Assembly: GCA_002869695.1 (NCBI GenBank) | Contig: PKUD01000131.1 | Span: forward strand, 1-41,437 | DNA: 41,437 nucleotides | Direction: 5' to 3' | From: Desulfuromonas sp. | GTDB lineage: Bacteria > Desulfobacterota > Desulfuromonadia > Desulfuromonadales > Geopsychrobacteraceae | In this document: one piece after another, positions 5,656 to 20,623 of the stretch | Position numbering within the stretch: position 1 is the first letter of the stretch | Layout: every line of letters starts with the position of its first letter | Translations under genes and position numbers: made by a program | Notes under the pieces: model-generated | Databases searched by the model: none | What the model was told of the DNA's origin: nothing | Seen by the model: the letters and a program-made list of their open reading frames with translations, nothing else

Positions 5656-6978
5656 ATGTTGCCCGTTGTTGCTATCGTAGGTCGGCCGAATGTCGGCAAA
5701 TCGACCCTGTTCAACCGGATTCTCGGCCACCGGAAGGCAATCGTTGAGGACCTGCCCGGGGTCACCCGGGACCGTAATTATGCCGAGGTGACCCGCTACG
5801 AGCGACCGTTCCTGCTGATCGATACCGGTGGTTTCGAACCGGTGACAGAGGATCGACTGCTGATGCAGATGCGTGAACAGTCGCAACTGGCAGTAGAAGA
5901 AGCCGATGTCATCATCTTTCTGATGGATGTTCGGCAGGGGTTGACGCCATCCGACCAGGATGTTGCGGAGCAGTTGCGTCGGACCAGCAAACCAGTTTTC
6001 TATGTCGTCAATAAGGTCGATGGGAACAAGCAGGAGGAATTGGCCGCTGAATTCTATGGTTTGGGTGTCGATGAGGTTCATGCCGTGTCGGCTGAACATG
6101 GCCGGGGGATAAATGGCCTTCTGGATGCGCTGATGCCGTTACTGCCCGAATCTGAAGAAGAACCAGATACCTCCGGAGAGGTCCGGTTGTCGGTGATCGG
6201 TCGCCCCAACGTGGGAAAATCCACTCTGGTCAATAAACTTCTCGGCTTTGAACGGGTTGTCGCGAACCCGACCGCAGGGACGACAAGAGACAGCATCGAT
6301 ACTCCATTTATACACAACGACAAACGCTATGTTCTGATCGACACCGCTGGGATTCGGCGCAAGGGCAAGGTCAGCCAGGCTCTGGAGAAATTCAGTGCGA
6401 TTCAGGCGCTCAAGGCGATGGACCGGTCACATGTTGTGCTGATGATTATTGACGCCGAAGAGGGGATAACCGACCAGGATTTGTCGGTTGCAGGTTATGC
6501 CTATGAAAAGGGTCGTGCGTTGATCCTGGTGGTCAATAAGTGGGATCTGCCTGAAAAAGATGAAAAGAGCATGGGACGGTATGTCGAAGAGGTTCAGCGA
6601 CGGTTTAAATACCTGCCGTTTGTCCCGGTTCTTTTTGTTTCTGCCCTGACCGGCCAACGGGTCGGGAAAATCATGCCGCTGGTAGAAGAGGTTGCTGAGG
6701 AGTTCAATCGCCGCGTGACAACGGGACTGCTGAACAAGACTCTAGAGGATGCCGTGCAGAAACATCCCCCTGCCATGGTGCGCGGTGGCCGAACCAAGCT
6801 TTATTATGCGACTCAGGCGGCAGTTCGTCCACCGACCTTTGTTATCTTCACCAATCGCCCGGACGACATACACTTCTCCTATGAACGCTATCTGCAGAAC
6901 TGTTTCCGCGATGCGTTCGGCTTCAAGGGGGCACCGATTCGGATCCGATTTAAGGGGCGCGGCAAAAAGGAGGGGTAG
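5656..6978 (+). CDS. der: GTPase Der (EngA)
   Basis: Double-GTPase required for 50S ribosomal subunit maturation. The 440-residue protein has two tandem G domains, each with a GRPNVGKS P-loop (residues 9-16 and about 182-189), DTGG/DTAG switch motifs, and NKVD/NKWD specificity motifs. A C-terminal KH-like domain ends in the [11 protein letters not shown] signature. Length is typical. It is the last recognisable gene of the rnc-era-der group; a 223-base gap separates it from the chemosensory cluster. Confidence 0.97.
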
Positions 6979-7201: not shown

Positions 7202-8869
7202 ATGGGGCTGGTTGGAAATCTCGAAGATCTGGGGCTTGGCGATATTCTGCAGATCGTCAGTCTCAGCAAGAAGTCAGGGGTCCTGTCGCTTGAAAGCGGC
7301 GGCCGCAATGGCGCCATTATGTTCCTCGAGGGGCAGGTGGTGCGGGCGACCTCCAGCCTGTTCAAGGAGCATCTCGGCGATATCCTGCAGAAATACCGGC
7401 TGACCAGTGCCGCCGAATTGGAAAAGGCTCTGTCCATTCAATCCGGTCTTGACCAGCACCTGCCGCTGGGTCAGATCCTTTCGCAACATTTCGGTGTCTC
7501 CCAGGAAAAAATAGAGGCGGCCATCAAGGCCAAGATTGAAAAGATTGTCTACAGTTTTTTTGCCTGGTCCGACGGGGTCTTTTCTTTTCATCTGGAAGAA
7601 CCTGAGAGCTTTGGTTCGGCCCGGTTGGACCCTCTTGATTTCATGCTTGAACAGGGGCTCAGTCCACAGTGGTTGGCCCTGGAAGGACGACGACTGGCCA
7701 ACGAGGGTCGGATTCTGCCCGATTGGCCCGGAGAAGAACGGATCGAGGACGAACTTGAAGAGCCTCCCGCTTCATTTGCGGTGCCGCATCGCGACGTTGA
7801 CGCGACTCCGGAAGAATCTGCCTCTTCGGCTGTTCCGGGGGATGCTCTGCTGCTGATTATTGATGATGATACAGCGACCTGTACCGCTCTGGAAAAAGCT
7901 TTTTCCAGGGCTGGATATGAGGTTGAAACCTGTCCACGAACTGCAGAGTATCTTGAAACGTGTGACCAGCTGGTTGCCAGGGGGAGACAACCTGCTCTGT
8001 TGATCGATCTGATCATGCCTCGCCTTGATGGACATGGTATTCTCGGCGGTCTTGAGGTGATGGAACTGGTCCGGCAGAAGTATCCGCAGTTGCCACTTCT
8101 GCTGATGACCGATCATCCGAGCACCGAGGCCGAGGAGAAGGCCCGCGAACAGGGCGCTCTTGCAGTGTTACAGAAACCCCGCAAAGAGGATGTCCGCGAG
8201 CCGGTCGGAATTGAGTTGCTGCGGGGACTTGTTCTCTCTGTCTCGTCCCTGTTGCATCCTGAACCGAATCGGATTGAGCAGAATTACAATCTGGGAGATG
8301 ACCTGCTGGAACTTGCCGGGCAGGAGAACACACAAGCCTCTGCATCCATCGAATCTCCCGGGCTCTATCTGCTGAAGGGGATGTTGCAGGAGCTGGCCAG
8401 CCCTCTGCTGGGTGGAGGGATTATCCTGTTGACATTGCGGTTTGCCAGTGAATTGATGAACCGGGCGGTTATTTTTGATGTGCGTGACAATTCTCTGGTC
8501 GGACTCGGACAGTTTGGCCTTGATTCAGTTACGGATCAGGCTGATGCCATGGTCCGAAAGATGCGATTGCAGGTCACCCCGGACTCAGTATTGCACCAGG
8601 TTCTCACCCGCAAAGTGGCGATAAAAGCGCAATTGGGATCCTGCGAGACCGACGTTCGTTTGCGTGACCAGTTGGGAGGTGCTGAGGCGAGTGAAAGTTT
8701 TTTCGGGCCCCTGGTCAGTGAAGGTAAGGTGGTCGCGATCCTTTATGGCGACAATCTGCCTCAGCACAAGCTGATCGGCGATGTCGATGCTTTTGAGGTG
8801 TTTCTCTCCCAGGCCGGTATGGCGATGGAAAAAGTTCTTCTGGAACGGCGCCTGAACAGTCAATCATAG
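7202..8869 (+). CDS. PATAN (DUF4388)-receiver-GAF-like signalling protein
   Basis: A three-module cytoplasmic signalling protein of 555 residues. Residues 1-155 are a DUF4388/PATAN domain (opening with the typical GLVGNLEDLGLGDILQIVS). Residues 215-340 are a response-regulator receiver with the acidic triad D221-D223, phospho-acceptor D269, T303 and K325. Residues 380-550 look like a GAF-type domain. Such PATAN proteins are common in Geobacter-like bacteria and are associated with two-component and chemosensory systems. It is the first gene of a 13-gene block, so it could be a sensor or adaptor acting with the downstream CheA. The start is the ATG at 7202, with only a weak upstream AGGG. No membrane segment is visible. 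The exact function is unknown. Confidence 0.85.
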   Translation: MGLVGNLEDLGLGDILQIVSLSKKSGVLSLESGGRNGAIMFLEGQVVRATSSLFKEHLGDILQKYRLTSAAELEKALSIQSGLDQHLPLGQILSQHFGVSQEKIEAAIKAKIEKIVYSFFAWSDGVFSFHLEEPESFGSARLDPLDFMLEQGLSPQWLALEGRRLANEGRILPDWPGEERIEDELEEPPASFAVPHRDVDATPEESASSAVPGDALLLIIDDDTATCTALEKAFSRAGYEVETCPRTAEYLETCDQLVARGRQPALLIDLIMPRLDGHGILGGLEVMELVRQKYPQLPLLLMTDHPSTEAEEKAREQGALAVLQKPRKEDVREPVGIELLRGLVLSVSSLLHPEPNRIEQNYNLGDDLLELAGQENTQASASIESPGLYLLKGMLQELASPLLGGGIILLTLRFASELMNRAVIFDVRDNSLVGLGQFGLDSVTDQADAMVRKMRLQVTPDSVLHQVLTRKVAIKAQLGSCETDVRLRDQLGGAEASESFFGPLVSEGKVVAILYGDNLPQHKLIGDVDAFEVFLSQAGMAMEKVLLERRLNSQS

Positions 8870-8924
8870 AACTGAGCTAAAGTGCTGTCTGTTTCGCAGT
8901 ACGGCATTTTCTGATGGAGATGTT

Positions 8925-9290
8925 TTGAGAAAAATTCTTGTGGCAGAGGATTCAGCGACCATGCGGGGGCTGATTGTTGCGACCCTGGAAGCCATGGACG
9001 ACTTTACCATCGTTGAAGTTGAAAACGGTTTCGAGGCGTTGCGTGTTCTGCCGCGTGAAAAGGTGGATATGGTGATTACTGATATCAATATGCCGGATAT
9101 CAATGGGCTTGAACTGGTCAAGTTTATCCGCAGTCAGCCTCAGTATAAGTCTACCCCGCTACTCATCATAAGCACCGAGGGGAGTGATAAGGACCGGGAG
9201 AAAGGTCTGGCACTTGGTGCGGACAGCTATCTTAACAAACCGTTTCAGCCGGAAGAACTGCAGAGGCTGGTCAGCCAGTTGCTGGACTAG
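8925..9290 (+). CDS. cheY: CheY-like single-domain response regulator (1)
   Basis: A 121-residue stand-alone receiver: acidic E8/D9, phospho-acceptor D53 in ITDINMPD, T84 and K105 are all in place, so it should accept phosphate from CheA. There is no output domain. Translation starts at TTG (8925) with GGAG five bases upstream; this start keeps the family's N-terminal beta strand. An out-of-frame ATG at 8920 would encode only two codons and overlaps the TTG. It lies directly before cheA (12 bases), so it is the most likely direct partner. It resembles the receiver at 19747 at the other end of the cluster. Confidence 0.93.
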   Translation: MRKILVAEDSATMRGLIVATLEAMDDFTIVEVENGFEALRVLPREKVDMVITDINMPDINGLELVKFIRSQPQYKSTPLLIISTEGSDKDREKGLALGADSYLNKPFQPEELQRLVSQLLD

Positions 9291-9302
9291 GGACAGAACA
9301 CC

Positions 9303-11333
9303 ATGGGTACAGGTTCACTGCAACCGGTTGCTGAGTTTTTGGCCGAAGCTGAAGATCTGTTGGGGAATCTGAGCCAGAACTTCTCCATCCTTTCAGATGG
9401 CGCCGAAACGGGTGACGTCAGTCCTGATCTGCTGAATGGGATTTTTCGTGATGCCCACTCGATAAAAGGACTGGCCGGAATGTTCGGTTTCGATGATATT
9501 GCCGAACTCTCGCACCATCTGGAAAATCTTCTCGATCGCCTGCGCTTGGGCAAACTCCCTCTGGACAATTTTCTTATTGATTGCCTATTTGATTCCCTCA
9601 GTGCCCTGATCGGACTGGTGGAAGGAAAAAGTGTAAATCCTGAGTTGACCCAAGATATCTCCTCAAGTGTCGCTCGGATTGAGGGACTCTTGTCCAGCCA
9701 GACTGGAGTTGCGGAGAACCTGTTCGCCGGTCTGCATATCGATCCTGAGCTCCTCGGGGTGCTGACCGAATATGAAGAGCACAGGTTGCAGGACAACATC
9801 CGGCAAGGGCACGCTCTGCTGCTGGTAAAAGCGGTTTTCCCGCTTGACAGTTTTGATGTGGATCTGGCGAGTTTGACAGACAATCTCAAACAGCACGGCG
9901 AGGTGGTAAGCACCCTGCCCGGGCAAAACAATGATCGTCCGGATTGTCTGGCCTTTAACGTTCTCTGCGGTACCCGCTATTCCGGCTCGGCACTCCAGGA
10001 CATACTCGATGACGGGACCATCGAAATCGAAGAGGTGGTTGCTGCCCGGGTGGAAGAGTCTTTGGAGAATGCTCCTCACGATCAACTGGCGAATGCGGCT
10101 ACCGCTTCATTGAATGACGACGGACCTGTTTCCGAGACGCTGCGTTCTTTCAGCAGTACGGTGCGGGTCGATATCGGCAAGCTTGACAACCTGTTGGATA
10201 TTGTCGGTGATCTGACCCTCGCCAAGGGGGAAATCTCCCGCATTGCAGAAGAACTCTCTGGTCAAGGGATATCGCTGGGCAAGGATCTGGGGAAAACCGC
10301 CCATCGCCTTGAGCGGCGCCTGCTGGCGTTACAATCAGCAGTCATGGATGTCCGGATGGTCCCGGTCCGACAGCTGTTTGACAAGCTGAACCGGATCGTT
10401 CGACGCATGGCACGAGACCTTGGCAAAAATGTCGAACTGGAGATTCTCGGGGGAAATACCGAACTGGATAAGTTGATCGTCGAAAAACTTGCCGATCCCT
10501 TGATGCATATCATCCGTAATGCACTTGACCATGGCATTGAAACCGGTCCGGAACGACGTGCGGCTGGAAAGTCGGAGATCGGCAGGATTACCCTGTCAGC
10601 GGCTCCGAAGGGGAGTCATGTTGCGGTCGAAATTCGAGATGATGGCCGTGGCATAGATCCGGAGGGGTTGCGCCGGGCAGCGATTGCGAAAGGTTTGATC
10701 AAGCCAGAAGCAATTATGACTGAGCAGGATCTTTTTGGACTGCTGTTTCACTCCGGCTTTTCTACGCGGACTGAGGTCAGTGAGTTTTCGGGACGGGGTG
10801 TCGGGATGGATGTGGTTAAAAACAATATTTCGGCCCTTTCCGGAATGATCGATTTGACGAGCCGACCTGGTGAAGGAACCACTCTTTCTTTGACATTGCC
10901 GGTCACTCTGGCGATTATCAAAGCCCTGGTGATTCACTCCAGCGGCCGTGATTTTGCTATTCCATTGGCTTCGGTCGTGGAGACCCTGATTCTTGATCCC
11001 GGTATGACGAGAACCATCGAAGGGCGCGAGGTGCTGGAATTGAGACACAGTACCCTGCCGCTGCTGCATCTTGACCAGGCGTTCCAGATTCGGGCTGAGA
11101 AGTCTGAATCCAAGACCCGTTTTGTGGTGGTGGTCGGATTCGCCGACCGACGTATCGGCCTTGTGGTCGATGATCTTTATGATCAGCAGGACGTGGTGAT
11201 AAAGCCACTAGGCAAAACACTCTCATTTGTTCGCGGAATTTCCGGCGCAGCGGATATGGGCAACCAGCGGACTATTCTCGTCCTTGATGTCGGTGGGATG
11301 ATTGAGGTTGCCCTGCAGGGCGGGGGGCTGTGA
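9303..11333 (+). CDS. cheA: Chemotaxis histidine kinase CheA
   Basis: Central kinase of the chemosensory array. The 676 residues run as follows: HPt domain with phospho-His H52 in AHSIKG (1-130); a P2-like middle region (about 160-250); dimerisation helices (285-360); the ATPase domain with N box around N406, G1 DDGRG (446-450), LFHSGFST (481-488) and GRGVGMD (497-503); and a C-terminal CheW-like domain (540-672). All catalytic motifs are present. The start is ATG 9303 with AGGGA upstream. The stop is followed one base later by the AAA ATPase gene, so the two are tightly coupled. The middle region is not a standard CheY-binding P2 by eye. Confidence 0.97.
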   Translation: MGTGSLQPVAEFLAEAEDLLGNLSQNFSILSDGAETGDVSPDLLNGIFRDAHSIKGLAGMFGFDDIAELSHHLENLLDRLRLGKLPLDNFLIDCLFDSLSALIGLVEGKSVNPELTQDISSSVARIEGLLSSQTGVAENLFAGLHIDPELLGVLTEYEEHRLQDNIRQGHALLLVKAVFPLDSFDVDLASLTDNLKQHGEVVSTLPGQNNDRPDCLAFNVLCGTRYSGSALQDILDDGTIEIEEVVAARVEESLENAPHDQLANAATASLNDDGPVSETLRSFSSTVRVDIGKLDNLLDIVGDLTLAKGEISRIAEELSGQGISLGKDLGKTAHRLERRLLALQSAVMDVRMVPVRQLFDKLNRIVRRMARDLGKNVELEILGGNTELDKLIVEKLADPLMHIIRNALDHGIETGPERRAAGKSEIGRITLSAAPKGSHVAVEIRDDGRGIDPEGLRRAAIAKGLIKPEAIMTEQDLFGLLFHSGFSTRTEVSEFSGRGVGMDVVKNNISALSGMIDLTSRPGEGTTLSLTLPVTLAIIKALVIHSSGRDFAIPLASVVETLILDPGMTRTIEGREVLELRHSTLPLLHLDQAFQIRAEKSESKTRFVVVVGFADRRIGLVVDDLYDQQDVVIKPLGKTLSFVRGISGAADMGNQRTILVLDVGGMIEVALQGGGL

Positions 11334-11334
11334 G

Positions 11335-12138
11335 ATGTACAAGGCGTTCTTTGGCTTGACAGAAAGGCCTTTCAGCAAAACCCCTGATCCTAAGTATCTG
11401 TACCTGTCCAAGGGGCACAGGGAGGCCCTGGCCAGGCTGCAACATGCTGTGGAAGAACGGGATATTATCCTTCTGACCGGCGCCATCGGCTGTGGCAAAA
11501 CGACCTTGTCGCGGGCACTGATGGACGAGCTTGATAGCGGGTTTCAGGTAATTCTGTTGACCAACCCCCGCTTGTCTCCGCTTGAGTTTTTACGGACCCT
11601 GGCGTTTCGATTGGATATTGTAAAACCTGCCGAATATAAATCAGAGTTGCTGGAACAGCTTGGCGAGCGTTTGTATCAGTTGTACCGGGAGTCGATACAT
11701 CCGGTTCTGATCATTGACGAAGCACAGCTGATTCCCCACAAGGACACCTTTGACGAAATTCGTCTGCTGACCAATTTTCAGCTGGACGACGGCAACCTGA
11801 TCAGTGTCGTGTTGATGGGACAACCGGAACTGCGCAGTCGTCTTGCACATCCGGTGTATGAACCTTTGCGTCAGCGCATCGGAATTCATTTCGCCCTAGG
11901 GCCCTTATCGGAATCTGAGATCGGCGCCTACCTGGAATACCGGATTCTCTGCGCGGGGGGAACAGGCGATATTTTTCAGCAGGACGCGGTCAGTGCGATT
12001 GCCCGGTTCACCGGGGGAACCCCGCGCAAGATCAACCAGGTGGCCGCCTTGGCTCTGCTGGAGGGTTTTGGCAGAGACTGCTCGCGGATCGATGCCAAGA
12101 TAGTCGCAGCGGTTGTCGAGGAATTAAGTGAGCTGTAA
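11335..12138 (+). CDS. ExeA/MshM-like AAA ATPase
   Basis: A 267-residue AAA ATPase of the ExeA/GspA family. It begins with the family signature MYKAFFGLTERPFSKTPDP, then Walker A GAIGCGKT (49-56), Walker B LIIDEAQ (125-131), a sensor segment LMGQPELRSRL and the C-terminal GGTPRKINQVAALAL helix. ExeA-type proteins help build type II secretion channels or MSHA-type pili. This copy has only the ATPase core, with no membrane segment and no peptidoglycan-binding domain, so it resembles the short MshM form. It starts one base after the cheA stop (ATG 11335), an unusual place for this family. It may link CheA signalling to a pilus or secretion machine, but that is inference from position. Confidence 0.87.
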   Translation: MYKAFFGLTERPFSKTPDPKYLYLSKGHREALARLQHAVEERDIILLTGAIGCGKTTLSRALMDELDSGFQVILLTNPRLSPLEFLRTLAFRLDIVKPAEYKSELLEQLGERLYQLYRESIHPVLIIDEAQLIPHKDTFDEIRLLTNFQLDDGNLISVVLMGQPELRSRLAHPVYEPLRQRIGIHFALGPLSESEIGAYLEYRILCAGGTGDIFQQDAVSAIARFTGGTPRKINQVAALALLEGFGRDCSRIDAKIVAAVVEELSEL

Positions 12139-12198
12139 CCCACCGGCAACCTGTGCCTGGAAATTAATTTTTTTGCTGTCGGGGGAATAAACATAATC

Positions 12199-12207
12199 TG
12201 CTATAAT
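12199..12207 (+). promoter_or_regulatory. Extended -10 promoter before cheW
   Basis: TG-C-TATAAT (12199-12207) is a perfect extended -10 element in the 114-base gap before the first cheW. No good -35 is visible, which is tolerated by extended -10 promoters. It implies that the second half of the cluster can be transcribed separately. Confidence 0.5.
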
Positions 12208-12252
12208 TGGCCAACTCCTGTTGTTTTGACAGGTGAAGACCACAGGTAACAT

Positions 12253-12915
12253 ATGGACCTTGCTGAAATCAGAAAGAAAGCCAGGCTGCAAAGTGCACCT
12301 GCTGAAAGACTTGAGCAGGACATGGCCCTCTCGAGTTCGGCAACTGAGAAGGTCAAGGCAAGCGGGTCGGAAATAAGTCCCGAAAGTGTCTGGGATAGTG
12401 AAGCCAACCTGCCACTGATAACAGAAGAGGAATATGCTCTCGCCCTGCAAAGCCACACTGCTGAGAGCGAATCAACGTCTCAGTGGCTGACTTTTGTCTG
12501 TGGCAATGAAGAATATTCCCTTGAACTGGCAAAGGTTCTGGAGCTTATTCGTCCGCGGAGCCTGACCGAGTTGCCTCAGGCCCCAGATTTTTTACTCGGA
12601 ATTGTGTCCCTGAGGGGGCAGATCATTCCTGTTGTTGATCTTGCCCGGCGGCTGAACCTGCAGCCATCTCATGACACGTCTCAGCAGAGAGTGATTGTCT
12701 GCGCTGCCGGTGACGAACGGATCGGGCTACTCGTCGATAAGGTGGTTCAGGTTGTCAGGATGAAGCCCGAACAGGTTGAGACCGCACCATTGCTTGCGGA
12801 TTCACCGACGAAAGACGTTATCTCCGCAATTGGCAGAATTCAGGGTAAGATGCTGGTCCTGTTGAATCCGGAAAGAATCCTGGACATTGAACCACAGGAC
12901 GTGTTGACCGATTGA
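12253..12915 (+). CDS. cheW: CheW adaptor with N-terminal extension
   Basis: Adaptor that couples CheA to receptors or other array parts. The CheW fold occupies residues 77-218 (QWLTFVCGNEEYSLELAKVLELI, then FLLGIVSLRGQIIPVVDLARRL and IGLLVDKVVQVV, the core family motifs). Residues 1-75 are an acidic, low-complexity extension not found in minimal CheW proteins (about 150 residues). The start is ATG 12253 with AGG upstream. It is one of two CheW genes here; the other, at 13372, lacks most of this extension. Confidence 0.93.
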   Translation: MDLAEIRKKARLQSAPAERLEQDMALSSSATEKVKASGSEISPESVWDSEANLPLITEEEYALALQSHTAESESTSQWLTFVCGNEEYSLELAKVLELIRPRSLTELPQAPDFLLGIVSLRGQIIPVVDLARRLNLQPSHDTSQQRVIVCAAGDERIGLLVDKVVQVVRMKPEQVETAPLLADSPTKDVISAIGRIQGKMLVLLNPERILDIEPQDVLTD

Positions 12916-12989
12916 TTTTTTTTGACTCGGAAGCTAGGTTTGTCCCGCCCGAGTTCAGACATGCAGCAATTTTTTGGAGGGAAGTTTGT

Positions 12990-13355
12990 ATGCAGAAAAA
13001 GATCCTGATTGTTGAAGACGAGGAGAGCTTGCTCAAGCTGGAAAGTATTCTTTTGACGACCAAAGGGTACCTGGTTCGAGGAGCAACAACCGGCCTTGCG
13101 GCGCTGGAGGCGGTAGCCGAGGAGCATCCAGATCTGATCTTGCTGGACGCGATGTTGCCGGAGATGGATGGTTTCGAGGTCTGTTCCAGGGTCAAGAGTG
13201 CTCCGGAAACAGAACATATTCCGATCGTTTTGCTGACCGCAAAAAAGACTCCAGAAGATATGGCCCACGGGAAGCAGGTCGGTGCGGATGAATATATTAC
13301 CAAGCCATTCAAATCGGCAATGGTGATAGATACTATCGAGAAACTGCTTCTTTGA
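12990..13355 (+). CDS. CheY-like single-domain response regulator (2)
   Basis: A 121-residue receiver with E9/D10, phospho-acceptor D53 (LLDAMLPEMDG), T83 and K105, all intact. It is closer to the PilH/DivK style of stand-alone receivers (DAMLPEMDGFEVC) than to the other two in the cluster. The start is ATG 12990 with a strong GGAGG nine bases upstream; reading further upstream in frame adds 26 residues without homology. It sits between the two cheW genes. It may act as an output or as a phosphate sink. Confidence 0.92.
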   Translation: MQKKILIVEDEESLLKLESILLTTKGYLVRGATTGLAALEAVAEEHPDLILLDAMLPEMDGFEVCSRVKSAPETEHIPIVLLTAKKTPEDMAHGKQVGADEYITKPFKSAMVIDTIEKLLL

Positions 13356-13371
13356 TGGACTGTTGCTGGTC

Positions 13372-13893
13372 ATGATTGAGCACCAAGGTAAGCGAGCAGG
13401 GCAGTGGAATGATGAACAGGTCAAGCTCGCATGCTTGAGGGTCGGCAATGGTTACTACGCTCTCGATATCATGTGTATCCGTGAGATTATCCGGCCATTG
13501 CCGATCACCCCGATTCCGAAAGCCCCCCCCTTCATAGACGGTATTATAAATCTGCGCGAATCTGTTATTCCGATTGTGGATTTACGGCGTCGTTTCGATC
13601 TGCCGTCTGCTGATCAGGGGACCCTGCGACGGATGGTAATCTGTGTGGTCGCTGGGCGGGTGGTCGGTCTGGTTGTCGATGAAGTCACTGAGGTGCGCAG
13701 TTATGTCCGTGATGACATTCAGCCTACCCCTTACTATCTCTCCGGAGAAAATGTCCAGTTCTTTCCCGGTGTATGCCGAAACGACGGACAGATGCTGATG
13801 CTGCTCGATTTGAAAAAGATTCTGGCCAGTGATCAGCGGATAGACGGGCAGGTTTTGTACCGACAAGTTCTGACCAATGGCGAGGGGGAGTGA
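13372..13893 (+). CDS. cheW: CheW adaptor (second copy)
   Basis: A second CheW-like protein of 173 residues. Core motifs are VKLACLRVGNGYYALDI, IREIIRP, FIDGIINLRESVIPIVDLRRRF and VVGLVVDEVTEV. ATG 13372 is preferred; an in-frame TTG at 13363 would add three residues but has its GGA too close. It lies 16 bases after the receiver gene and eight bases before the zinc-ribbon gene. Two CheW proteins beside one CheA suggest that the array joins more than one kind of sensor, or that one CheW forms CheW-only rings. Confidence 0.92.
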   Translation: MIEHQGKRAGQWNDEQVKLACLRVGNGYYALDIMCIREIIRPLPITPIPKAPPFIDGIINLRESVIPIVDLRRRFDLPSADQGTLRRMVICVVAGRVVGLVVDEVTEVRSYVRDDIQPTPYYLSGENVQFFPGVCRNDGQMLMLLDLKKILASDQRIDGQVLYRQVLTNGEGE

Positions 13894-13901
13894 GATAACT
13901 T

Positions 13902-14717
13902 ATGATTATTGAATGTCCCAGTTGTAATGCTTCTCTGCGTTTGGACAAAAGCCGCTATGCGGGCAAGCGACTGTCTCTGCGCTGCCCCTCCTGCCGGCGT
14001 TCATTTACAACCGAAATCCCCCCCGATTCAATTGCCACCGTGCTGGTTGCGCATGGCTACCCAAAATCTTTTGATGAGTTGCGGGCTGTTCTGGTTCAGG
14101 ACGATCTGACAATCCTGACCTGTAGTGAAAACGAAGAGGCGTTGAGCCTACTGCGAGACAAGCCGGTCCGGATCCTCTTACTCGATGTGGCCTTGACCGG
14201 TTCCTTTCCGTTTGAATTGATCGATGAAGCCCGAAATAAGCCGTCGGACAAACCGGTGAAAATAATTCTATTGCCGTCAGTTTACAATAAAACCGCCTAC
14301 AAGCGGCGCCCGACCTCTCTTTATGGTGCTGATGCCTACTTGGAACTGCACCACATCGGTGATCGTCTGTTGCCTCTGCTACGGGACCTTTGTCCTGATC
14401 TTGATCTCAAGGAACCTTCTGCCGGGTTCTACCGGTCTGCAAAAGGTGAGGAGCGCAGCCTGCCGGATGCCAGTGGCGCTCAAGCTGCCGAAGAGTTGGC
14501 GCGCTTACTCATCGCCGATATCGCCCTTTACCATCAGGAGCAGATCGACCAGGGAATTCGGGAAGGGGCTCCCGGCCTTTACTTGGACAATGAAATGAAC
14601 GAGGGACGGCGCCTTCTGGATGAACGGATCGCTCATGAAATTTTGGCCCAGGGGGATTTTCTGCAGCAGGCACTCGAACAATTTGCTGTGGCCCGACGGA
14701 AGGAACTCGATCTCTAG
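13902..14717 (+). CDS. Zinc-ribbon protein with degenerate receiver domain
   Basis: A 271-residue protein of unknown role. Residues 1-35 form an MJ0042-type zinc ribbon with C5, C8, C28 and C31 (CPSC...CPSC). Residues 45-165 look like a response-regulator receiver: strand-helix alternation with D95 in ILLLDVAL at the phospho-acceptor position. However, the N-terminal acidic pair is replaced by AHG and the conserved Lys by a non-basic stretch (DAYLELHH), so phosphorylation is doubtful. Residues 195-271 are helical and charged. It starts at ATG 13902, eight bases after cheW, and is probably in the same transcript. Likely a scaffold or pseudo-receiver of this system. Confidence 0.75.
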   Translation: MIIECPSCNASLRLDKSRYAGKRLSLRCPSCRRSFTTEIPPDSIATVLVAHGYPKSFDELRAVLVQDDLTILTCSENEEALSLLRDKPVRILLLDVALTGSFPFELIDEARNKPSDKPVKIILLPSVYNKTAYKRRPTSLYGADAYLELHHIGDRLLPLLRDLCPDLDLKEPSAGFYRSAKGEERSLPDASGAQAAEELARLLIADIALYHQEQIDQGIREGAPGLYLDNEMNEGRRLLDERIAHEILAQGDFLQQALEQFAVARRKELDL

Positions 14718-14792
14718 ATTGGGCTCTCAGCGTAGCTCTGAACAAAGTTGGACCAGCCTTCCCGTTGCAAACTGCTAGATCCGGAAGAAACT

Positions 14793-16802
14793 ATGGAAGA
14801 TATCTCGCTGCATTGTTCACGTATGCTCAGTTCGTCCGCTGTTGACGACCGCTTGCAAGGGGTGCGTCTGCTGGCCGATCTAAGACCGCTCAGAATGGAC
14901 CTGTATCGCTCCGCTTTTGCAGACCAGGATTGGCGGGTGCGTAAAGAAGCAGTCAGGGGTTTCCTCTCCTCACCCGGGGTTGAACAGTATTCCGGGGCTG
15001 TTATCGAACTCCTCCACGATTCTGAAAACGCCGGACTGCGCAATTCTTCTATTGAAATTCTGGTCAGTCTTGGGCCACTTGTGGTTGCTGATCTGGTCGC
15101 AGAAATTGCGTGTCCCGATGCTGATGTACGGAAGTTTGTGATCGATATTCTCGGCGAGATCGGTTCCCCTGAATGCATCGACGGGGTTCTGAATGCTCTG
15201 CAAGATGACGACACAAATGTTCTCTACGCCGCAGTAGAAACCCTGGGAAAGCTGTCCGTAGCAAGGGCTGTTGGCCCATTGCTGGACTTAATGGAGGGAG
15301 CAGACACCGGTCTTCGCTTTACGATTCTTGAAGCACTGACAGCAATTGGTCAGGATGTTTCGATTGTTCGCCTGAGTCGATATCTGGAAGACCGGGTTCT
15401 GCGCAGAGCCTTGCTTGATTGTTTCGGCCGGATTGGTGGTTCGGAGGTCCTGCCCTATCTGCTGGAGGGTCTGACGGACCCCATGCGTAAGGTCAGGGAG
15501 GTCTCTTTGAGGTCAATGGCGCATCTGGCCAAAACCATACCGAGCGAGATGAAGGCTGCATTACGGGGGGCGCCTGATGATTTGACTGCAGAGTTGATCA
15601 ATTTGCTCAACGCAGCAGATATCGACAGACAGCGTGATGCGATCAGGCTGGCCGCACTGGTTGGTGGATTGGCGCAGGCGCAGGCGTTGCTGCCGTTGAT
15701 GCAGGAAGACGGCTTGCGTGATGATGTCATAGCAGCATTCCGTAGTCAGGATGAATGCTTCTTCGACCAGTTGTTGATCGAGGATCTCTGGTCCGAGCCG
15801 ATGACCCGTCTCTATCTTGTTTATCTGGCCGGAGAATTGTCGCATCATGCCGGCCGTCAGCTTGCGATCGATTCCCTGGGTAATGCTGATCCCCAGTTAC
15901 GTTATGTCGCGGCCATTGCGCTTGGGAAAATCGGAGATGATTCGGCGGTTGAACCCCTGTGTCGGCTCTTGCAGGATGAAAATCCGGAGATTTGTGATGC
16001 CGCATCGAAAGCCTTGGAACTCCTGGGAACGACATATCCCGATGAACTCATCGCGAGACTTGAATCCCTGACCAGTGCGACTGATGCTGCCCTGAGAATG
16101 AGAGTCGTTCGTGTCCTTGGCCGCGTTGCTGATCACGGACTAGAGCTGACCCTTCTCATGGCGCTTAAGGATCCCGATCCAGCCGTCCGCTGCGAGGCCA
16201 TCAGGGCGCTGGGACGCAGTGGTGCAGGCACGCATGGCGAAGGGTTGACGCTGGCCTTGAATGACGAGGCTGCCGACGTTCGGCGACTGGATGCCGAAGC
16301 TCTGGGACGTACGCATGAGCAGGATGCTCTGCCGGCTTTGACTTTGGCTCTGGAGGATCCGGACCCCTGGGTCCGCGCAGCTGCGGTCCGTTCTCTCGAG
16401 GCTTTTGCTGCGGACCAGGTTGATCAACAGCTGACCCGAATGCTGGAGGACCAGGTTGGACTGGTCGTGATTGCTGCGTTGGAAACACTCACCCGGCGAG
16501 ACATCTCACGTTCGCGCACCTGCCTCGAGGGTGCCCTCGGTCACCCTGACGAGGAAGTCGTCAAGACGGCTGTTGATCTGTTGGTCCGGCAGGAGCGGAG
16601 AGATAGCAAGAGCGACTTTTGTGCCGAACTGCTGAACCACTCCCGTGATAAAGTCCGCATCTATGCTGTGGCGACAATTGCCAGAATTCACGGCAAGGCC
16701 GGTCTGCAATCACTTGAACAGCAGTTACGAGTTGAGGCTGAGCCCATGGTGCGTAAGGCACTTGAGGACGCTGTGAATGATCTGCAAAGGTCGGTGAGCT
16801 GA
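14793..16802 (+). CDS. HEAT-repeat scaffold protein
   Basis: A 669-residue protein made almost entirely of HEAT (PBS-lyase type) repeats of about 30 residues, for example VRKFVIDILGEIGSPECIDGV, LRYVAAIALGKIGDDSAVEPL, VRCEAIRALGRSGAGTHGEG and VRAAAVRSLEAFAADQVDQQ. No catalytic motif, signal peptide or membrane segment is seen. Repeat proteins of this kind mediate protein-protein contacts. I chose ATG 14793, which has GGAAG five bases upstream; an in-frame TTG at 14748 has no good ribosome binding site. It ends two bases before the cheR GTG, so cheR translation is probably coupled to it. A role as a scaffold between CheR/CheB and the array is inference. Confidence 0.85.
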   Translation: MEDISLHCSRMLSSSAVDDRLQGVRLLADLRPLRMDLYRSAFADQDWRVRKEAVRGFLSSPGVEQYSGAVIELLHDSENAGLRNSSIEILVSLGPLVVADLVAEIACPDADVRKFVIDILGEIGSPECIDGVLNALQDDDTNVLYAAVETLGKLSVARAVGPLLDLMEGADTGLRFTILEALTAIGQDVSIVRLSRYLEDRVLRRALLDCFGRIGGSEVLPYLLEGLTDPMRKVREVSLRSMAHLAKTIPSEMKAALRGAPDDLTAELINLLNAADIDRQRDAIRLAALVGGLAQAQALLPLMQEDGLRDDVIAAFRSQDECFFDQLLIEDLWSEPMTRLYLVYLAGELSHHAGRQLAIDSLGNADPQLRYVAAIALGKIGDDSAVEPLCRLLQDENPEICDAASKALELLGTTYPDELIARLESLTSATDAALRMRVVRVLGRVADHGLELTLLMALKDPDPAVRCEAIRALGRSGAGTHGEGLTLALNDEAADVRRLDAEALGRTHEQDALPALTLALEDPDPWVRAAAVRSLEAFAADQVDQQLTRMLEDQVGLVVIAALETLTRRDISRSRTCLEGALGHPDEEVVKTAVDLLVRQERRDSKSDFCAELLNHSRDKVRIYAVATIARIHGKAGLQSLEQQLRVEAEPMVRKALEDAVNDLQRSVS

Positions 16803-16804
16803 GC

Positions 16805-17689
16805 GTGTTTGTATTCAAGGCCGATATCCCGATGGAGGAAGACGATTTCCGTTTGCTTCGGGATTTTGTTTATCAATATTGCGGCCTTTATTTTGATAGT
16901 GACTCCAAGTATCTGTTGGAAAAACGTCTTAACAAACGCCTCAGCCACCATCGGCTGGAGACTTTCCGTGACTATTATTACCTGCTTCGTTATGGGCATG
17001 AAAAGGAGCAGGAACTTGCCGCTGTCATCGACCTGCTGACAACCAATGAAACCTATTTTTTTCGTGAAGATTTCCAGCTGAAAACATTTGTCGAAGAAAT
17101 CATCCCCGAGCTGTGCGAACAGAAACGGAAGCGGGGGGACCACACCCTGCGAATCTGGAGCGCAGGTTGTTCGAGCGGTGAGGAACCATACACCGTCGCG
17201 ATGCTCTTGCTGGAGAACCCGGATCTGAGCGGATGGGATATCAATATCGTCGGCACCGATATCTGTCAGGAGGTGTTGACGAAAGCCAGGCATGGACTGT
17301 ATGGCACGAATTCTTTCCGGGGTACGGATGATTACTATCTGCAGAAGTATTTCACTCCCTCCCCCGAAGAGGAGAATATCTGGAAAATCGATGACCGGGT
17401 CAAACAGCTGGTCACAATCAGTCGATTGAATCTTTTTGACAGCCGCCGGGTTTCCGTACTTGGCGAAGTTGACCTGATTTTCTGCCGTAACGTGATTATC
17501 TATTTCGATCTTAATTCCAAGCGCCAGGTCATAACTAACCTGCGTGATCGACTCTCCCCTGGTGGTTTTCTGCTGTTGGGGCATTCAGAATCCCTGATGA
17601 ATATCAGCACCGATTTCCAGTTGCGTCACTTCGTTAACGACATGGTTTATCAGTTGCCGCTATCACCACCCGGGGGGAAACATGACTAA
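16805..17689 (+). CDS. cheR: Chemotaxis protein methyltransferase CheR
   Basis: Uses S-adenosylmethionine to methylate glutamates of chemoreceptors. The 294-residue protein has the N-terminal helical domain (DFVYQYCGLYF...LEKRLNKRL) and the methyltransferase domain with the SAM loop SAGCSSGEEPYT (from residue 119) and FCRNVIIYFD (from residue 226). It ends in the standard HSESL segment. The start is GTG 16805, with a GGTGAG-type site inside the previous gene; ATG 16832 is an alternative. It overlaps cheB by eight bases. No receptor gene is present nearby, so its substrates must be encoded elsewhere or be unusual. Confidence 0.96.
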   Translation: MFVFKADIPMEEDDFRLLRDFVYQYCGLYFDSDSKYLLEKRLNKRLSHHRLETFRDYYYLLRYGHEKEQELAAVIDLLTTNETYFFREDFQLKTFVEEIIPELCEQKRKRGDHTLRIWSAGCSSGEEPYTVAMLLLENPDLSGWDINIVGTDICQEVLTKARHGLYGTNSFRGTDDYYLQKYFTPSPEEENIWKIDDRVKQLVTISRLNLFDSRRVSVLGEVDLIFCRNVIIYFDLNSKRQVITNLRDRLSPGGFLLLGHSESLMNISTDFQLRHFVNDMVYQLPLSPPGGKHD

Positions 17690-18743
17690 TGCGATCCGGG
17701 TGTTGGTTATCGATGATTCGGCGTATAACCGGGTCACGATCGGCAAGATGTTGGAAGGGATGCCGGGGGTTGAGGTCGTCGGCTATGCCGTTGATGGTGA
17801 AGATGGCTTGCGGAAATTGTTTGATCTGCAACCTGACGTGATCACGCTCGACTTGGAAATGCCCCGCATGGGGGGACTTCGGATGCTCCAGATCGTCATG
17901 CAGAGCCATCCGATTCCGGTCATCGTTGTCTCTTCTTTGTCTGAAGACCAGTATGTACTTAAAGCACTCGAGTTGGGTGCTGTCGATTTTGTCGCGAAGC
18001 CGGGACGACCGGTCAGCCCTGACCTCTATTCGATTGAGAAAGACCTGGAATTGAAGGTGAGGGCTGCTGCCCGAATCGATTTCAACGTTGCGCAACCCTC
18101 TGCTGCTGAGCTCACATCGATTTCCAGAACAACAGGCCGAACGGCATCCGTGGCTTTGGACGAACGGCAGGCGACGGCGGTTGTCATTGGTGCATCGACG
18201 GGTGGGCCGCCGGCCTTGAATCTCTTGTTCGGAGCCGTGCAGGCACCGATTCCTGTTGCATTTGCTGTGGTTCAGCACATGCCGCCTGGCTTTACAAAAT
18301 CTCTGGCGGCCAGGCTGAATGAGAATTCAGCCCTGGATATACGTGAAGCGTGCGAAGGTGATCGGATGTTGCCCGGACAGGTGCTAATCTGCCCCGGCGG
18401 GCGAAACCTTGAACTGCAGCAGGATCAAGACGGTGTTTTTGTCCGGGTCTTGAGTCCACCTGCGGAACAGATATACACCCCTTCGGCGGACGTCCTGTTC
18501 AAATCGGCCGCATCGGTTTATACGCGTGACCTGCTGGCTGTCGTCCTTACCGGGATGGGCAATGACGGAACCTCCGGCGTACGGAAAGTCTGTGCTTATG
18601 GAGGCAGGGTCCTTGCTGAAGCCGAGGAGAGTTGTGTCGTGTACGGGATGCCGAAAGAGGCTGTGGCAACTGGCCTGGTTGAGAAAGCTGTCCCGCTGGC
18701 GAATATGAGTCAGGAAATTATGGAACGTTGCCGATTGACTTAA
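17682..18743 (+). CDS. cheB: Protein-glutamate methylesterase CheB
   Basis: Removes methyl groups from chemoreceptors and deamidates glutamines when its receiver is phosphorylated by CheA. The 353 residues comprise a receiver (1-125; D11/D12, phospho-acceptor D57, K106) and the esterase domain with the catalytic triad S172 (GASTGG), H199 (QHMPPGF) and D295 (TGMGNDG). All required residues are present. The start is ATG 17682, inside the end of cheR. The linker between the domains (about 130-165) is of normal length. Confidence 0.96.
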   Translation: MTNAIRVLVIDDSAYNRVTIGKMLEGMPGVEVVGYAVDGEDGLRKLFDLQPDVITLDLEMPRMGGLRMLQIVMQSHPIPVIVVSSLSEDQYVLKALELGAVDFVAKPGRPVSPDLYSIEKDLELKVRAAARIDFNVAQPSAAELTSISRTTGRTASVALDERQATAVVIGASTGGPPALNLLFGAVQAPIPVAFAVVQHMPPGFTKSLAARLNENSALDIREACEGDRMLPGQVLICPGGRNLELQQDQDGVFVRVLSPPAEQIYTPSADVLFKSAASVYTRDLLAVVLTGMGNDGTSGVRKVCAYGGRVLAEAEESCVVYGMPKEAVATGLVEKAVPLANMSQEIMERCRLT

Positions 18744-18885
18744 AAACAGCTCTCCGCAGGGATCTTCGCCTGGATACTGGAAATTTTTACTTTCTCCTGC
18801 TAGTATGGCGAAGTTTTAATCTCGTCGTGGGGTTTACATTCTTCGACTGGCAGATCAGTCGGTGGCGATTTAAAAGAGGATTGGC

Positions 18886-19704
18886 ATGTCTGAAGGGGAA
18901 CAAAACAAGGGTGCACAGCAGCGCGCTGAGGAGTTTCTGCAGGTTTTCAAAAAAGGTGCGGAATTTACTCAGGACCTGCTCAAGGAGAACGAACGCCTCC
19001 GCTACCAGGTCCTTAAGCTCGAAAAAGCTCTCCCCGCCGGTGAGACTGGTGAGGTTGCTCGTCTAAAAGGTCGCATTGGTGAACTCGAGAGTGAAAAGCT
19101 GGAGATTCTCAGCCAGATAAAGACGATTGAGCAGGAGAACCAGGATTACGACAACAGATACAACGAGATTGAGGCGGAAAACAACCTGCTTGCCAACCTG
19201 TATATTTCCTCTTACCAGTTGCATTCGACCCTGGATCTTACTGAAATTATTCGTATCATCCAGGAAATCCTGTTGAATCTGGTCGGGGTGGAGCAGTTTT
19301 CCATCATGCTTCTGGATGAAACACAGAAAACCCTGCGACCGCTGGTGGTAGAAGGGGCTGATCCGCAACATGTCAGTTCAGTCCAGGTCGGAGAAGGGGT
19401 CATTGGTGCTGTTGCGCAAAGTGGTGAACGCCGTTTGCTCGGCCCCGAAGAGTCTGCGGATGTCTTCGCAGACCCGATTGCAGTGATTCCGCTGGTGGTC
19501 GGTACGGATGTGATCGGCGTTCTTAATCTTTACAGACTGCTGCAGCAGAAGGTTAATTTTACCAATATAGATGAGGAATTGTTTAATCTGCTTGGTACCC
19601 ATGCCGCGACCGCAATTTTTACTGCGATGCTGCACATGGAACGGGATAGTCGCCCAATTTTTTATGACAGTTTTTTTGCCCGGATGGCAGAAGACTTGAT
19701 CTGA
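18886..19704 (+). CDS. Coiled-coil GAF-domain sensor protein
   Basis: A 272-residue cytoplasmic protein. Residues 10-105 are a predicted coiled coil (long Glu/Lys/Leu heptads, such as ELESEKLEILSQIKTIEQENQ), and residues 115-258 are a GAF domain that could bind a small ligand. The C-terminus is short. There is no membrane segment, kinase or cyclase domain. The start is ATG 18886 with GAGGA upstream, 142 bases after cheB. A coiled coil joined to a GAF domain could stand in for a cytoplasmic receptor in a system with no MCP, but no MCP signalling hairpin motif is visible, so this is only a hypothesis. Confidence 0.8.
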   Translation: MSEGEQNKGAQQRAEEFLQVFKKGAEFTQDLLKENERLRYQVLKLEKALPAGETGEVARLKGRIGELESEKLEILSQIKTIEQENQDYDNRYNEIEAENNLLANLYISSYQLHSTLDLTEIIRIIQEILLNLVGVEQFSIMLLDETQKTLRPLVVEGADPQHVSSVQVGEGVIGAVAQSGERRLLGPEESADVFADPIAVIPLVVGTDVIGVLNLYRLLQQKVNFTNIDEELFNLLGTHAATAIFTAMLHMERDSRPIFYDSFFARMAEDLI

Positions 19705-19746
19705 TTTTACCGAGCGAGCCGCCAGATCCTCAGGAGGGATGGTGTT

Positions 19747-20127
19747 ATGGATACATTTAAAGTACTGGTAGTGGAAGATTCTCCAACCATGAGACAGTTG
19801 ATCGTGTTTGCGCTCAAGCGGATTCGCGGATTGCAGATCGCTGAGGCGAATGACGGTGTCGGTGGCCTGAAGAAATTGTCAGCGGAGAAGTTTGACCTTA
19901 TTCTGACGGATATCAACATGCCGATTATGGACGGCTTGAAACTGGTCAGCCTGATCCGCAATGACCCGCAATACAAGGACGTCCCGGTTGTGGTTATTAC
20001 CACCGAGGGAGCCCAGGAGGACCGTGATCGCGCGCTGGCGCTGGGGGCCAACGAATATATTACCAAACCGATTCAAACGGCCAAGATCATAGACGTAGTG
20101 AAGCGACTGCTGGCGGTCTCCGGTTAA
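19747..20127 (+). CDS. CheY-like single-domain response regulator (3)
   Basis: A 126-residue receiver with E10/D11, phospho-acceptor D55 (LTDINMPIMDG), T85/T86 and K107. It closely resembles the receiver at 8925 (both share EDSxTMRxLIV, TDINMP, a DPQYK/QPQYK segment and TEGxxxDR), so the two are paralogues flanking the cluster. The start is ATG 19747 with AGGAGGG nine bases upstream. It is the last gene of the chemosensory block; infA follows with its own promoter. Confidence 0.93.
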   Translation: MDTFKVLVVEDSPTMRQLIVFALKRIRGLQIAEANDGVGGLKKLSAEKFDLILTDINMPIMDGLKLVSLIRNDPQYKDVPVVVITTEGAQEDRDRALALGANEYITKPIQTAKIIDVVKRLLAVSG

Positions 20128-20154: not shown

Positions 20155-20182
20155 TTGACAGGTTTGTGTGAACGTGTAATAA
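20155..20182 (+). promoter_or_regulatory. Sigma-70 promoter for infA
   Basis: A perfect TTGACA (20155-20160), a 16-base spacer and TAATAA (20177-20182) lie 50 bases before infA. This separates housekeeping transcription from the chemosensory cluster. Confidence 0.6.
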
Positions 20183-20232
20183 GTCGAATTCTAAAATTTC
20201 AGGTGTTTTTCAGTACTGTTCAGGAGGAACTT

Positions 20233-20451
20233 TTGGCTAAAGAAGAAGCAATTGAAGTAGAAGGTGTTGTGGTTGAACCGTTGCCCAACGCAATGTTCAG
20301 GGTCAAGCTGGATAACGATCATGTTGTGCTTGCTCATATCTCTGGTAAGATGCGCAAGTATTACATCCGGATTCTCCCGGGGGACCGGGTTACCGTTGAG
20401 CTGTCTCCCTACGATCTGACTCGCGGGCGGATTACCTATCGCGCAAAATAA
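20233..20451 (+). CDS. infA: Translation initiation factor IF-1
   Basis: Small OB-fold factor that occupies the A site of the 30S subunit during initiation. With the TTG start at 20233 the protein is exactly 72 residues, the usual length, and begins [11 protein letters not shown]. The conserved [33 protein letters not shown] run is complete. AGGAGG lies five bases before the TTG, which decides the start; the longer in-frame reading from 20155 is not supported. A 172-base gap with a strong hairpin follows before leuS. Confidence 0.96.
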
Positions 20452-20537
20452 CGTGTAGCGATAAACCCAGACTACAGGTGTCACTGCTGCGGCAGATCGG
20501 TCGATCAGGCCTGGTCTCGTGGCGGTGACAACATTCG

Positions 20538-20557
20538 ATACCGGCTTGTGCCGGTAT
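20538..20557 (+). other. Perfect hairpin in leuS leader
   Basis: ATACCGGC and GCCGGTAT form a perfect 8-bp stem with a TTGT loop. There is no T-run after it, so it is not a normal intrinsic terminator. It lies 66 bases before the leuS start, in the infA-leuS gap. A T-box consensus is not present. Confidence 0.6.
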
Positions 20558-20623
20558 TCGTGTTATGTGTTCCGTTCAATCCAGTGGTGGCAGCTTTGCT
20601 GGCTGAGCCTCTGTGGAGGTTTT

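Follow-up and report, generated by a model that had tools for sequence, protein, structure and literature searches.

A beta-group (Esn-type) chemosensory operon without receptor genes in Desulfuromonas sp. and candidate altered-tip receptors encoded elsewhere in its genome

Clusters of chemosensory (che) genes that lack a gene for a methyl-accepting chemotaxis protein (MCP) have been divided into two groups, of which the beta group is conserved across deltaproteobacteria, Myxococcus xanthus included (Tran, 2008; PMC2577667), and beta-group clusters have been reported from five Desulfuromonas strains (PMC8235581). Here, the 41,437 nucleotides of contig PKUD01000131.1 of Desulfuromonas sp. (the window; contig C205 of the host genome G000, assembly GCA_002869695.1, completeness 96.84%) were analyzed with respect to an operon of 13 open reading frames, all on the + strand, at 7202-20127. 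Pfam assigns its gene content, in order, as PATAN-receiver, receiver, CheA, AAA_22 ATPase, CheW, receiver, CheW, zinc-ribbon pseudo-receiver, HEAT, CheR, CheB, GAF and receiver. This operon is a member of the known beta group, which has been characterized, partly by experiment: cheA, cheW, cheB and cheR stand in one cluster without mcp, and the arrangement is conserved across deltaproteobacterial relatives. There is no difference in kind from the clusters of Tran (2008), the window holding a copy with all 13 genes. The operon itself has thus already been described; what is new here is that its receptors look dedicated.

The experimental knowledge of such clusters comes from Geobacter sulfurreducens. 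Preliminary unpublished knock-outs pointed to the extracellular matrix, and class-specific pairing with receptors was proposed in general, sections 6, 7, 8 and 12 of that article naming no receptors for the beta cluster (Tran, 2008; PMC2577667). In transposon sequencing of electrode-grown cells, GSU2220 (CheW, EsnB), GSU2221 (ATPase) and GSU2222 (CheA, EsnC) were all found (Chan, 2017; PMC5585712). In the same study, the annotation of EsnB and EsnC links them to class 40H MCPs, and mutants lacking esnA, esnB, esnC or esnD were impaired in their growth on electrodes but not in Fe(III) oxide reduction. A two-hybrid assay there showed that EsnA, a GAF-MCP encoded elsewhere with a cytoplasmic GAF domain and no periplasmic domain, associates with EsnB and with EsnC. 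EsnD, which synthesizes cyclic di-GMP, is required for robust electrode growth (PMC6456294), and insertion in esnB raises a cyclic GMP-AMP (cGAMP) reporter, as does deletion of esnD (PMC8835794). In the window, the CheA-AAA-CheW order equals that of GSU2222-GSU2221-GSU2220, as compared by gene order and with the published table, and the receptor is likewise encoded elsewhere. By contrast, no EsnA-type GAF-MCP was detected in the host genome (E<=1e-40), which has two other long-hairpin MCPs; the system is therefore taken to work like Esn but with other receptors. No EsnD-type receiver-GGDEF protein is present among the operon genes, the genome not having been searched for EsnD. A sequence-only reading of this DNA had not recognized the composition as a characterized class; this fails in view of the beta group of Tran (2008) and, by gene order, of EsnC and EsnB (Chan, 2017), and an uncharacterized class was rejected since PMC2577667 and PMC5585712 describe it.

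Conservation of the locus was followed in 200 genomes of the class, with the pseudo-receiver as first marker. In the genome-wide searches (markers, CheA and MCP queries), scoring was limited to the top 5 to 12 candidates in each genome; 40 loci were collected via the pseudo-receiver, 21 via CheA and 41 via a contig scan with CheA, in which Desulfuromonas sp. BM508 (L087) was the closest titled relative with 69% CheA identity. A beta CheA match at E<=1e-120 was obtained in 162 of the 200 genomes. Among 62 cluster loci, 51 (the window included) have der, CheA and infA or leuS all in view and are referred to as spanning loci, while two of the remaining 11 (L073 and L210) hold an MCP. The operon lies between der and infA/leuS in the 51 spanning loci, and none of them contains an MCP gene. 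The gene set, which the sequence-only reading had suggested tracing in relatives, is complete in 27 of the 51, in exact order and on one strand in all 27; without the overlap filter this count rises to 31, and other gene counts become slightly higher, too. Such recurrence of gene order in tens of genomes is far beyond chance. Most often missing are the genes for the pseudo-receiver, the GAF protein and the third receiver (Y3), mainly from the same loci. Retention of the HEAT and ATPase genes is as strict as that of cheR and cheB, and they therefore belong to the machine. In family f19 (L073, L209-L211) the cluster is reduced, and der does not adjoin it in the stretch seen. A short, strongly diverged cluster, L050 (G047:C246), which is counted among the 51, occupies the same der-infA site and comprises PATAN, CheA, CheW, the second receiver (Y2), pseudo-receiver, GAF and Y3.

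Among the 20 window proteins scanned with Pfam, no MCP, CheC, CheD, CheZ or flagellar domain was found, so that the gene list and the absences given in the sequence-only reading hold, except for a GAF domain in the PATAN protein. The lack of a receptor is a matter of gene location, receptors being encoded elsewhere in the genome. Nine MCP genes were found in the host genome at 10 match places, none of them on the contig of the window and none with a Pfam GAF match, and the missing receptors are probably MCPs with a long cytoplasmic hairpin and an altered tip. The altered tip, NA[AS]IIAA[QK]AG, is present in the MCPs encoded at G000:C212:607-2301 (564 amino acids) and G000:C85:54419-56866 (816 amino acids), hereafter the C212 and C85 receptors, in the EsnA-type receptor and in four other MCPs of the Geobacter-like genome G107, while Escherichia coli Tar and the other seven MCPs of G000 have the ordinary tip NA[AT][IV]EAAR[AV]G. 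In general form, the altered tip reads NAAI-I/L-AA-Q/K-AG as compared to NAAIEAARAG, Ile/Leu and Gln/Lys standing where Glu and Arg are usual. The distance between tip and C-terminus is 193-232 residues in the seven receptors with the altered tip and 140-184 in most others, long exceptions among the latter being three MCPs of G107 (254 residues) and one of G000 (344 residues). A simple hydropathy scan detected a large periplasmic domain in the C85 receptor and none in the C212 receptor; the cytoplasmic sensing expected from the sequence-only reading hence suits EsnA and the C212 receptor but not the C85 receptor. In another MCP of the host genome (L128:1636-3528; G000:C53), about 230 residues that have no Pfam match lie C-terminal of the signalling domain. 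Long receptors have been termed 40+24H or 64H, and few or no 40H and 40+24H receptors were reported for Pelobacter carbinolicus together with one complete and two rudimentary chemosensory systems (PMC3543383; PMC8235581). A pairing of 40+24H or 64H receptors with the beta cluster is not stated in the parts of these two papers drawn on here, literature on the tip substitution alone not having been searched.

G107 possesses five CheA genes and 12 MCP genes at 13 places, and its five altered-tip MCPs all lie outside the stretches around its four other CheA genes; those stretches hold six MCP genes, of which L138, L139, L143, L147 and L148 have a tip with Glu. In L103, from an unclassified bacterium, a PATAN gene stands upstream of a beta-type CheA, and genes for two CheW, two MCPs and CheB lie downstream of this CheA in the same orientation. 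Both MCPs have an altered tip, NAAILAAQAG in the first, with 178 residues left to the C-terminus, and NAAIIAAQAG in the second, with 231. The second of these MCPs (14427-16544, + strand, 705 amino acids) has two CxxCH motifs (residues 110 and 147) N-terminal of the signalling domain, by which it may possibly be a redox receptor, and the two putative haem-binding motifs suggest redox state as one ancestral input. In genus g51, which we take to be Geobacter, an MCP gene stands beside holA on the opposite strand in G107 and G105 and about 5 kb further in G106; its altered tip was seen in G107, to whose copy those of G105 and G106 are 81% and 91% identical. In f19 (G088 and G091) an altered-tip MCP directly follows holA, and no MCP tip pattern was found near holA in 20 other genomes. 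An MCP gene just outside the cluster in relatives, which the sequence-only reading had named as evidence against itself, thus occurs past leuS-lptE-holA in Geobacter and f19, but was not found there by tip pattern in the 20 others. All MCPs inspected in or beside such clusters (two in L103, L073, L210 and that of G107) carry the altered tip. Whether the altered-tip long-hairpin receptors are a class dedicated to beta-group CheA, with one cell building two insulated kinds of array, an ordinary one and a 'surface' one with altered receptor-CheW/CheA contact, appears to us evenly poised.

Co-occurrence with CheA was determined for three receptor queries. The EsnA-type query was the GAF-MCP L145 of G107 (696 amino acids), with hydrophobic stretches near the N-terminus (judged by eye) followed by GAF and MCP domains; counted at E<=1e-100, with six genomes having matches of 1e-42 to 1e-47 dropped, this type is present in 155 of the 200 genomes, namely in 152 with CheA and three without, while 10 have CheA alone and 35 neither. 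Within the order of the host (88 genomes), the C212-type MCP and CheA are both present in 49 genomes, CheA only in three, the MCP only in one and neither in 35; for the C85 type the corresponding numbers are 51, one, one and 35. The single MCP-only genome in the order is G063, where the cluster is cut by a contig end (L213). At the level of the hairpin (C85 query, E<=1e-40, the tips having been inspected for part of the matches), both were found in 160 of the 200 genomes, CheA only in two, the MCP only in four and neither in 34; in other words, 160/162 genomes with CheA have a match as compared to 4/38 without. The four MCP-only genomes include G047, which has the diverged cluster L050, and G063 with its cut cluster. 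In the host's own family, 12 of 26 genomes carry CheA, and the hairpin class was found in 11 of these 12 and in one of the 14 others.

The kinase of the operon was placed in an IQ-TREE phylogeny of 53 hand-picked CheA sequences, with cluster labels assigned from neighbouring genes. Beta CheA forms one clade of 20 rows with support 100/99, including that of L103, and the sequences of E. coli, two Pseudomonas and others, together with the CheA on contig C44 of the host genome, form a separate 20-row clade, again with 100/99. CheA sequences labelled Dif-like, CheR-TPR-type and alpha all stand apart from beta, the join of alpha and beta being weak (54/16), and long branches are seen in four rows, the beta sequences of L050 and L209 among them. 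Placement within a known flagellar class, which the sequence-only reading had regarded as fatal to its view, was therefore not observed. The operon is not Dif-like, since Dif-like CheA, that of contig C48 of the host included, falls in another clade and the operon has no mcp; nor is it Frz-like, its CheA ending in a CheW domain without a fused receiver. CheW domains of the host genome are located on C205, C139, C44 and C48. The cluster on C44 (L130) consists of CheB, CheR, CheW, CheA and CheY and has an E. coli-type CheA although FliG was not found in the genome.

Taken as a whole, the operon is best explained, and we consider this probable, as the core of a beta-group (Esn-type) pathway with unlinked receptors and a non-flagellar surface output. 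Following this, we propose that CheA and the two CheW proteins would form arrays with the long-hairpin, altered-tip MCPs encoded elsewhere, that this receptor class would keep the beta arrays apart from the other chemosensory arrays of the cell, and that CheR and CheB would adjust the altered-tip receptors. CheA would phosphorylate the receivers of the operon and signal to an unlinked receiver-GGDEF enzyme making cyclic di-GMP (EsnD), as proposed for G. sulfurreducens, where the line from EsnC to EsnD is itself hypothetical and supported by the esnB reporter result. Instead of flagellar rotation, the pathway would control attachment to surfaces, the matrix and perhaps the activity of type IV pili. 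For Desulfuromonas sp., we infer this function of the operon, the feeding of its CheA by the C212 and C85 receptors, and cyclic di-GMP as output in the organism of the window.

Several observations weigh against this interpretation. Since an EsnA-type MCP is lacking in the host genome, its pathway must be served by other receptors; in G131 and G142 the receptor class was found with no CheA match at E<=1e-120; the sixth MCP in the stretches around the other CheA genes of G107 (L149, a weak 47-bit match) has the tip NAIIKAAQAG, a third kind that is partly like the altered one; and an L103 receptor with 178 residues after the tip means that the long hairpin is not universal. Moreover, score thresholds were chosen after the lists had been seen, and the genomes share ancestry, by which the p-values of co-occurrence overstate independence. 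Co-occurrence of receptors and CheA might indeed reflect shared ancestry only, some lineages having lost many signalling genes together: carriers and non-carriers are split mostly by family and genus, and a control receptor, the MCP of the host genome with a CZB domain, associates with CheA over the 200 genomes as well (119 both, 43 CheA only, 15 MCP only, 23 neither; p 0.0002), because the control is found more often outside the order, and CheA is present in almost every genome there. We regard this explanation as improbable, since the same control is unassociated within the order (26/26/14/22; p 0.38), the split runs inside the host's own family, and the MCPs inspected in or beside clusters have the altered tip. 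It is more improbable still that the operon needs no MCPs, CheA receiving its input from the GAF and PATAN proteins encoded beside it and no chemoreceptor array being formed. The absence of MCP genes from all spanning loci and the presence of a GAF gene in the operon would suit such a pathway, but 16 of the 51 loci lack the GAF gene, whereas CheR (46/51) and CheB (49/51, with its catalytic residues intact) are retained and would make little sense without methylated receptors; in addition, EsnA, which is required and associates with both EsnB and EsnC, is itself an MCP (PMC5585712). A truly receptor-free pathway was rejected on the basis of the co-occurrence of long-hairpin receptors with CheA and the altered-tip MCPs in or near clusters.

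With regard to output, a second flagellar chemotaxis pathway with unlinked receptors was found to be hardly credible. FliG_C matches were obtained in 155 of the 200 genomes at E<=0.001, 153 of them above the curated cut-off; 150 were used, since five weak matches (G013, G041, G090, G100 and G108; E 1.4e-4 to 7.8e-4, all others <=1.9e-37) were dropped, and all five of these genomes carry beta CheA. A strong FliG match is present in 115 of the 162 genomes with beta CheA, as a flagellar role would have it, yet FliG is missing from 47 of the 162 by this rule (44 by the curated cut-off, 42 counting any match), the host genome G000 without any match included, and 35 of the 38 genomes without beta CheA have FliG. 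Together with the position of the CheA outside the E. coli/Pseudomonas clade, these results support the output other than flagellar rotation that the sequence-only reading had suggested, and a flagellar system was rejected. A different output, to which we give some credence while considering it unlikely as the main one, would be a PATAN-receiver protein acting directly on the motor of type IV pili, in place of cyclic di-GMP. In Synechocystis, proteins of the PATAN-receiver type bind PilB1, the pilus motor (PMC9090330), and by analogy the PATAN protein of the operon may act on pili; its gene is present in 46 of the 51 loci, and insertions in pilB, likewise to those in esnB, raise the cGAMP reporter (PMC8835794). 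However, the link with genetic support is that from EsnB to EsnD and cyclic di-GMP, five of the 51 loci have no PATAN match, and both outputs can coexist.

The Wsp system of Pseudomonas is similar to the proposed Esn-type pathway in that its chemosensory array leads to a diguanylate cyclase and, finally, to attachment to surfaces, but the Wsp operon carries its receptor and a GGDEF regulator, neither of which is present in the operon of the window. WspA is a class 40H receptor (PMC3945109). Che8 of M. xanthus, which Tran (2008; PMC2577667) lists as a carrier of the beta cluster, is likened to the operon by gene order: its locus tags run CheY8a-CheB8-CheR8-(two tags)-CheW8a-CheW8b-CheA8-CheY8b with no mcp listed, and CheA8 is longer (862 amino acids) (PMC3945109). 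The orphan receiver MXAN_4468 was reported as a target of Che8, deletion of CheA8 acting on groESL transcription like loss of MXAN_4468 (PMC9040617), and all cheA deletions of M. xanthus were reported to be defective in fruiting body formation (PMC3945109). In the Che7 system, the HEAT protein Cpc7 binds CheY7 (PMC11514114), a likeness of HEAT proteins by description; by contrast to the operon, Che7 has its own MCP, Mcp7 (PMC3945109). In G. sulfurreducens, Esn is needed for electrode colonization, and the cited literature names one receptor, EsnA, for it. The tip rule combined with co-occurrence provides a short list of further candidate receptors per genome, by which the triggering signal for life on electrodes or surfaces becomes testable. 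Furthermore, the tip rule is a possible rule for the separation of receptors in cells with several chemosensory systems.

The operon begins with the PATAN (DUF4388) and receiver protein (7202..8869; DUF4388 87 bits, Response_reg 48.2 bits; 46/51 spanning loci), whose receiver Asp is conserved in all 38 homologues covering the site (49 aligned). Its predicted model has a low pTM of 0.39, and structural matches mainly cover the receiver at residues 213-356 (VIA-align). The C-terminal part is not recognizable as GAF by sequence comparison, giving no Pfam GAF match and an hhalign probability of 0.3 against the operon's GAF family, and the GAF label of the sequence-only reading is thus unsupported. 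The CheY-like receiver Y1 follows (8925..9290; Pfam 98.3 bits; 49/51), with both the phospho-Asp and the Lys in 53/53 aligned homologues. CheA, of the beta group and the counterpart of EsnC by gene order, is encoded at 9303..11333 (Pfam Hpt, H-kinase_dim, HATPase_c and CheW; 51/51), and its phosphorylated His is present in 58 of 60 homologues, the remaining two being gapped there. The ATPase, called ExeA-like in the sequence-only reading and assigned to AAA_22 by Pfam (11302..12138; 89.2 bits; 48/51), is the counterpart of GSU2221 by gene order and may instead start at an ATG at 11335; its Walker A Lys and Walker B Asp/Glu are found in 53/53 homologues, and no match to Protein Data Bank sequences was obtained at E<=0.001. 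The first CheW (12253..12915; 127.9 bits; 51/51), by gene order the counterpart of EsnB, is followed by the receiver Y2 (12912..13355; 95 bits; 44/51), for which an alternative ATG at 12990 may be the start and whose phospho-Asp is present in 53/53 aligned homologues, and by the second CheW (13363..13893; 134.7 bits; 47/51).

The zinc-ribbon pseudo-receiver (13902..14717; Zn_ribbon_4 39.6 bits; 35/51 spanning loci) has a predicted receiver fold: its Pfam receiver match is weak (19.9 bits, under the cut-off of 30.2), and its model (pLDDT 82.8) matches receiver domains structurally. The four zinc Cys are conserved in 42/42 homologues and the Asp in 39/42, while the acid pair is lost in 42/42 and the switch Lys is replaced by His in 41/42; owing to these changes it is probably a conserved receiver that cannot be phosphorylated. 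The C-terminal domain of the same protein is helical and contains DIALYHQEQID as a conserved stretch. The HEAT-repeat protein (14748..16802; Pfam HEAT_2 207.7 bits; 48/51), with an alternative ATG at 14793 that may be its start, may be the partner of a receiver by analogy with Cpc7. A HEAT-like repeat protein, KN400_2162, which by its number might be the HEAT gene of the G. sulfurreducens cluster, is tabulated as changed in two anode-evolved strains of that species (PMC13194489). CheR methyltransferase (16805..17689; 185.1 bits; 46/51) and the CheB methylesterase with a receiver (17682..18743; 199.1 bits; 49/51) come next, the catalytic Ser and His of CheB being present in 54/54 homologues and the Asp in 53/54 with one gap. 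The last two genes encode the GAF protein, described as coiled-coil in the sequence-only reading (18886..19704; GAF_2 49.7 bits; 35/51), and the receiver Y3 (19747..20127; 103.1 bits; 39/51), the latter with its phospho-Asp in 43/43 aligned homologues.

The operon is flanked upstream by era and der and downstream by infA, leuS, lptE, holA and murJ (Pfam/NCBIfam). Outside the system, der (EngA; 5656..6978, + strand; NCBIfam TIGR03594) forms a conserved left border at the same position in related loci, and infA (20155-20451) with leuS (20519-23185), both on the + strand and identified by Pfam and NCBIfam, forms the right border, one or both being there in related loci. Promoter-like sites in the window are about at the level of shuffled sequence (11 as compared to 8.6 expected, standard deviation 3.2), and no Rfam match at gathering score was found in it. 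The terminator-like site with most pairs is located at 20537-20558, 3' of infA and near the start of leuS. Owing to this position past infA and the closeness of infA to the operon, infA may share the che transcript.

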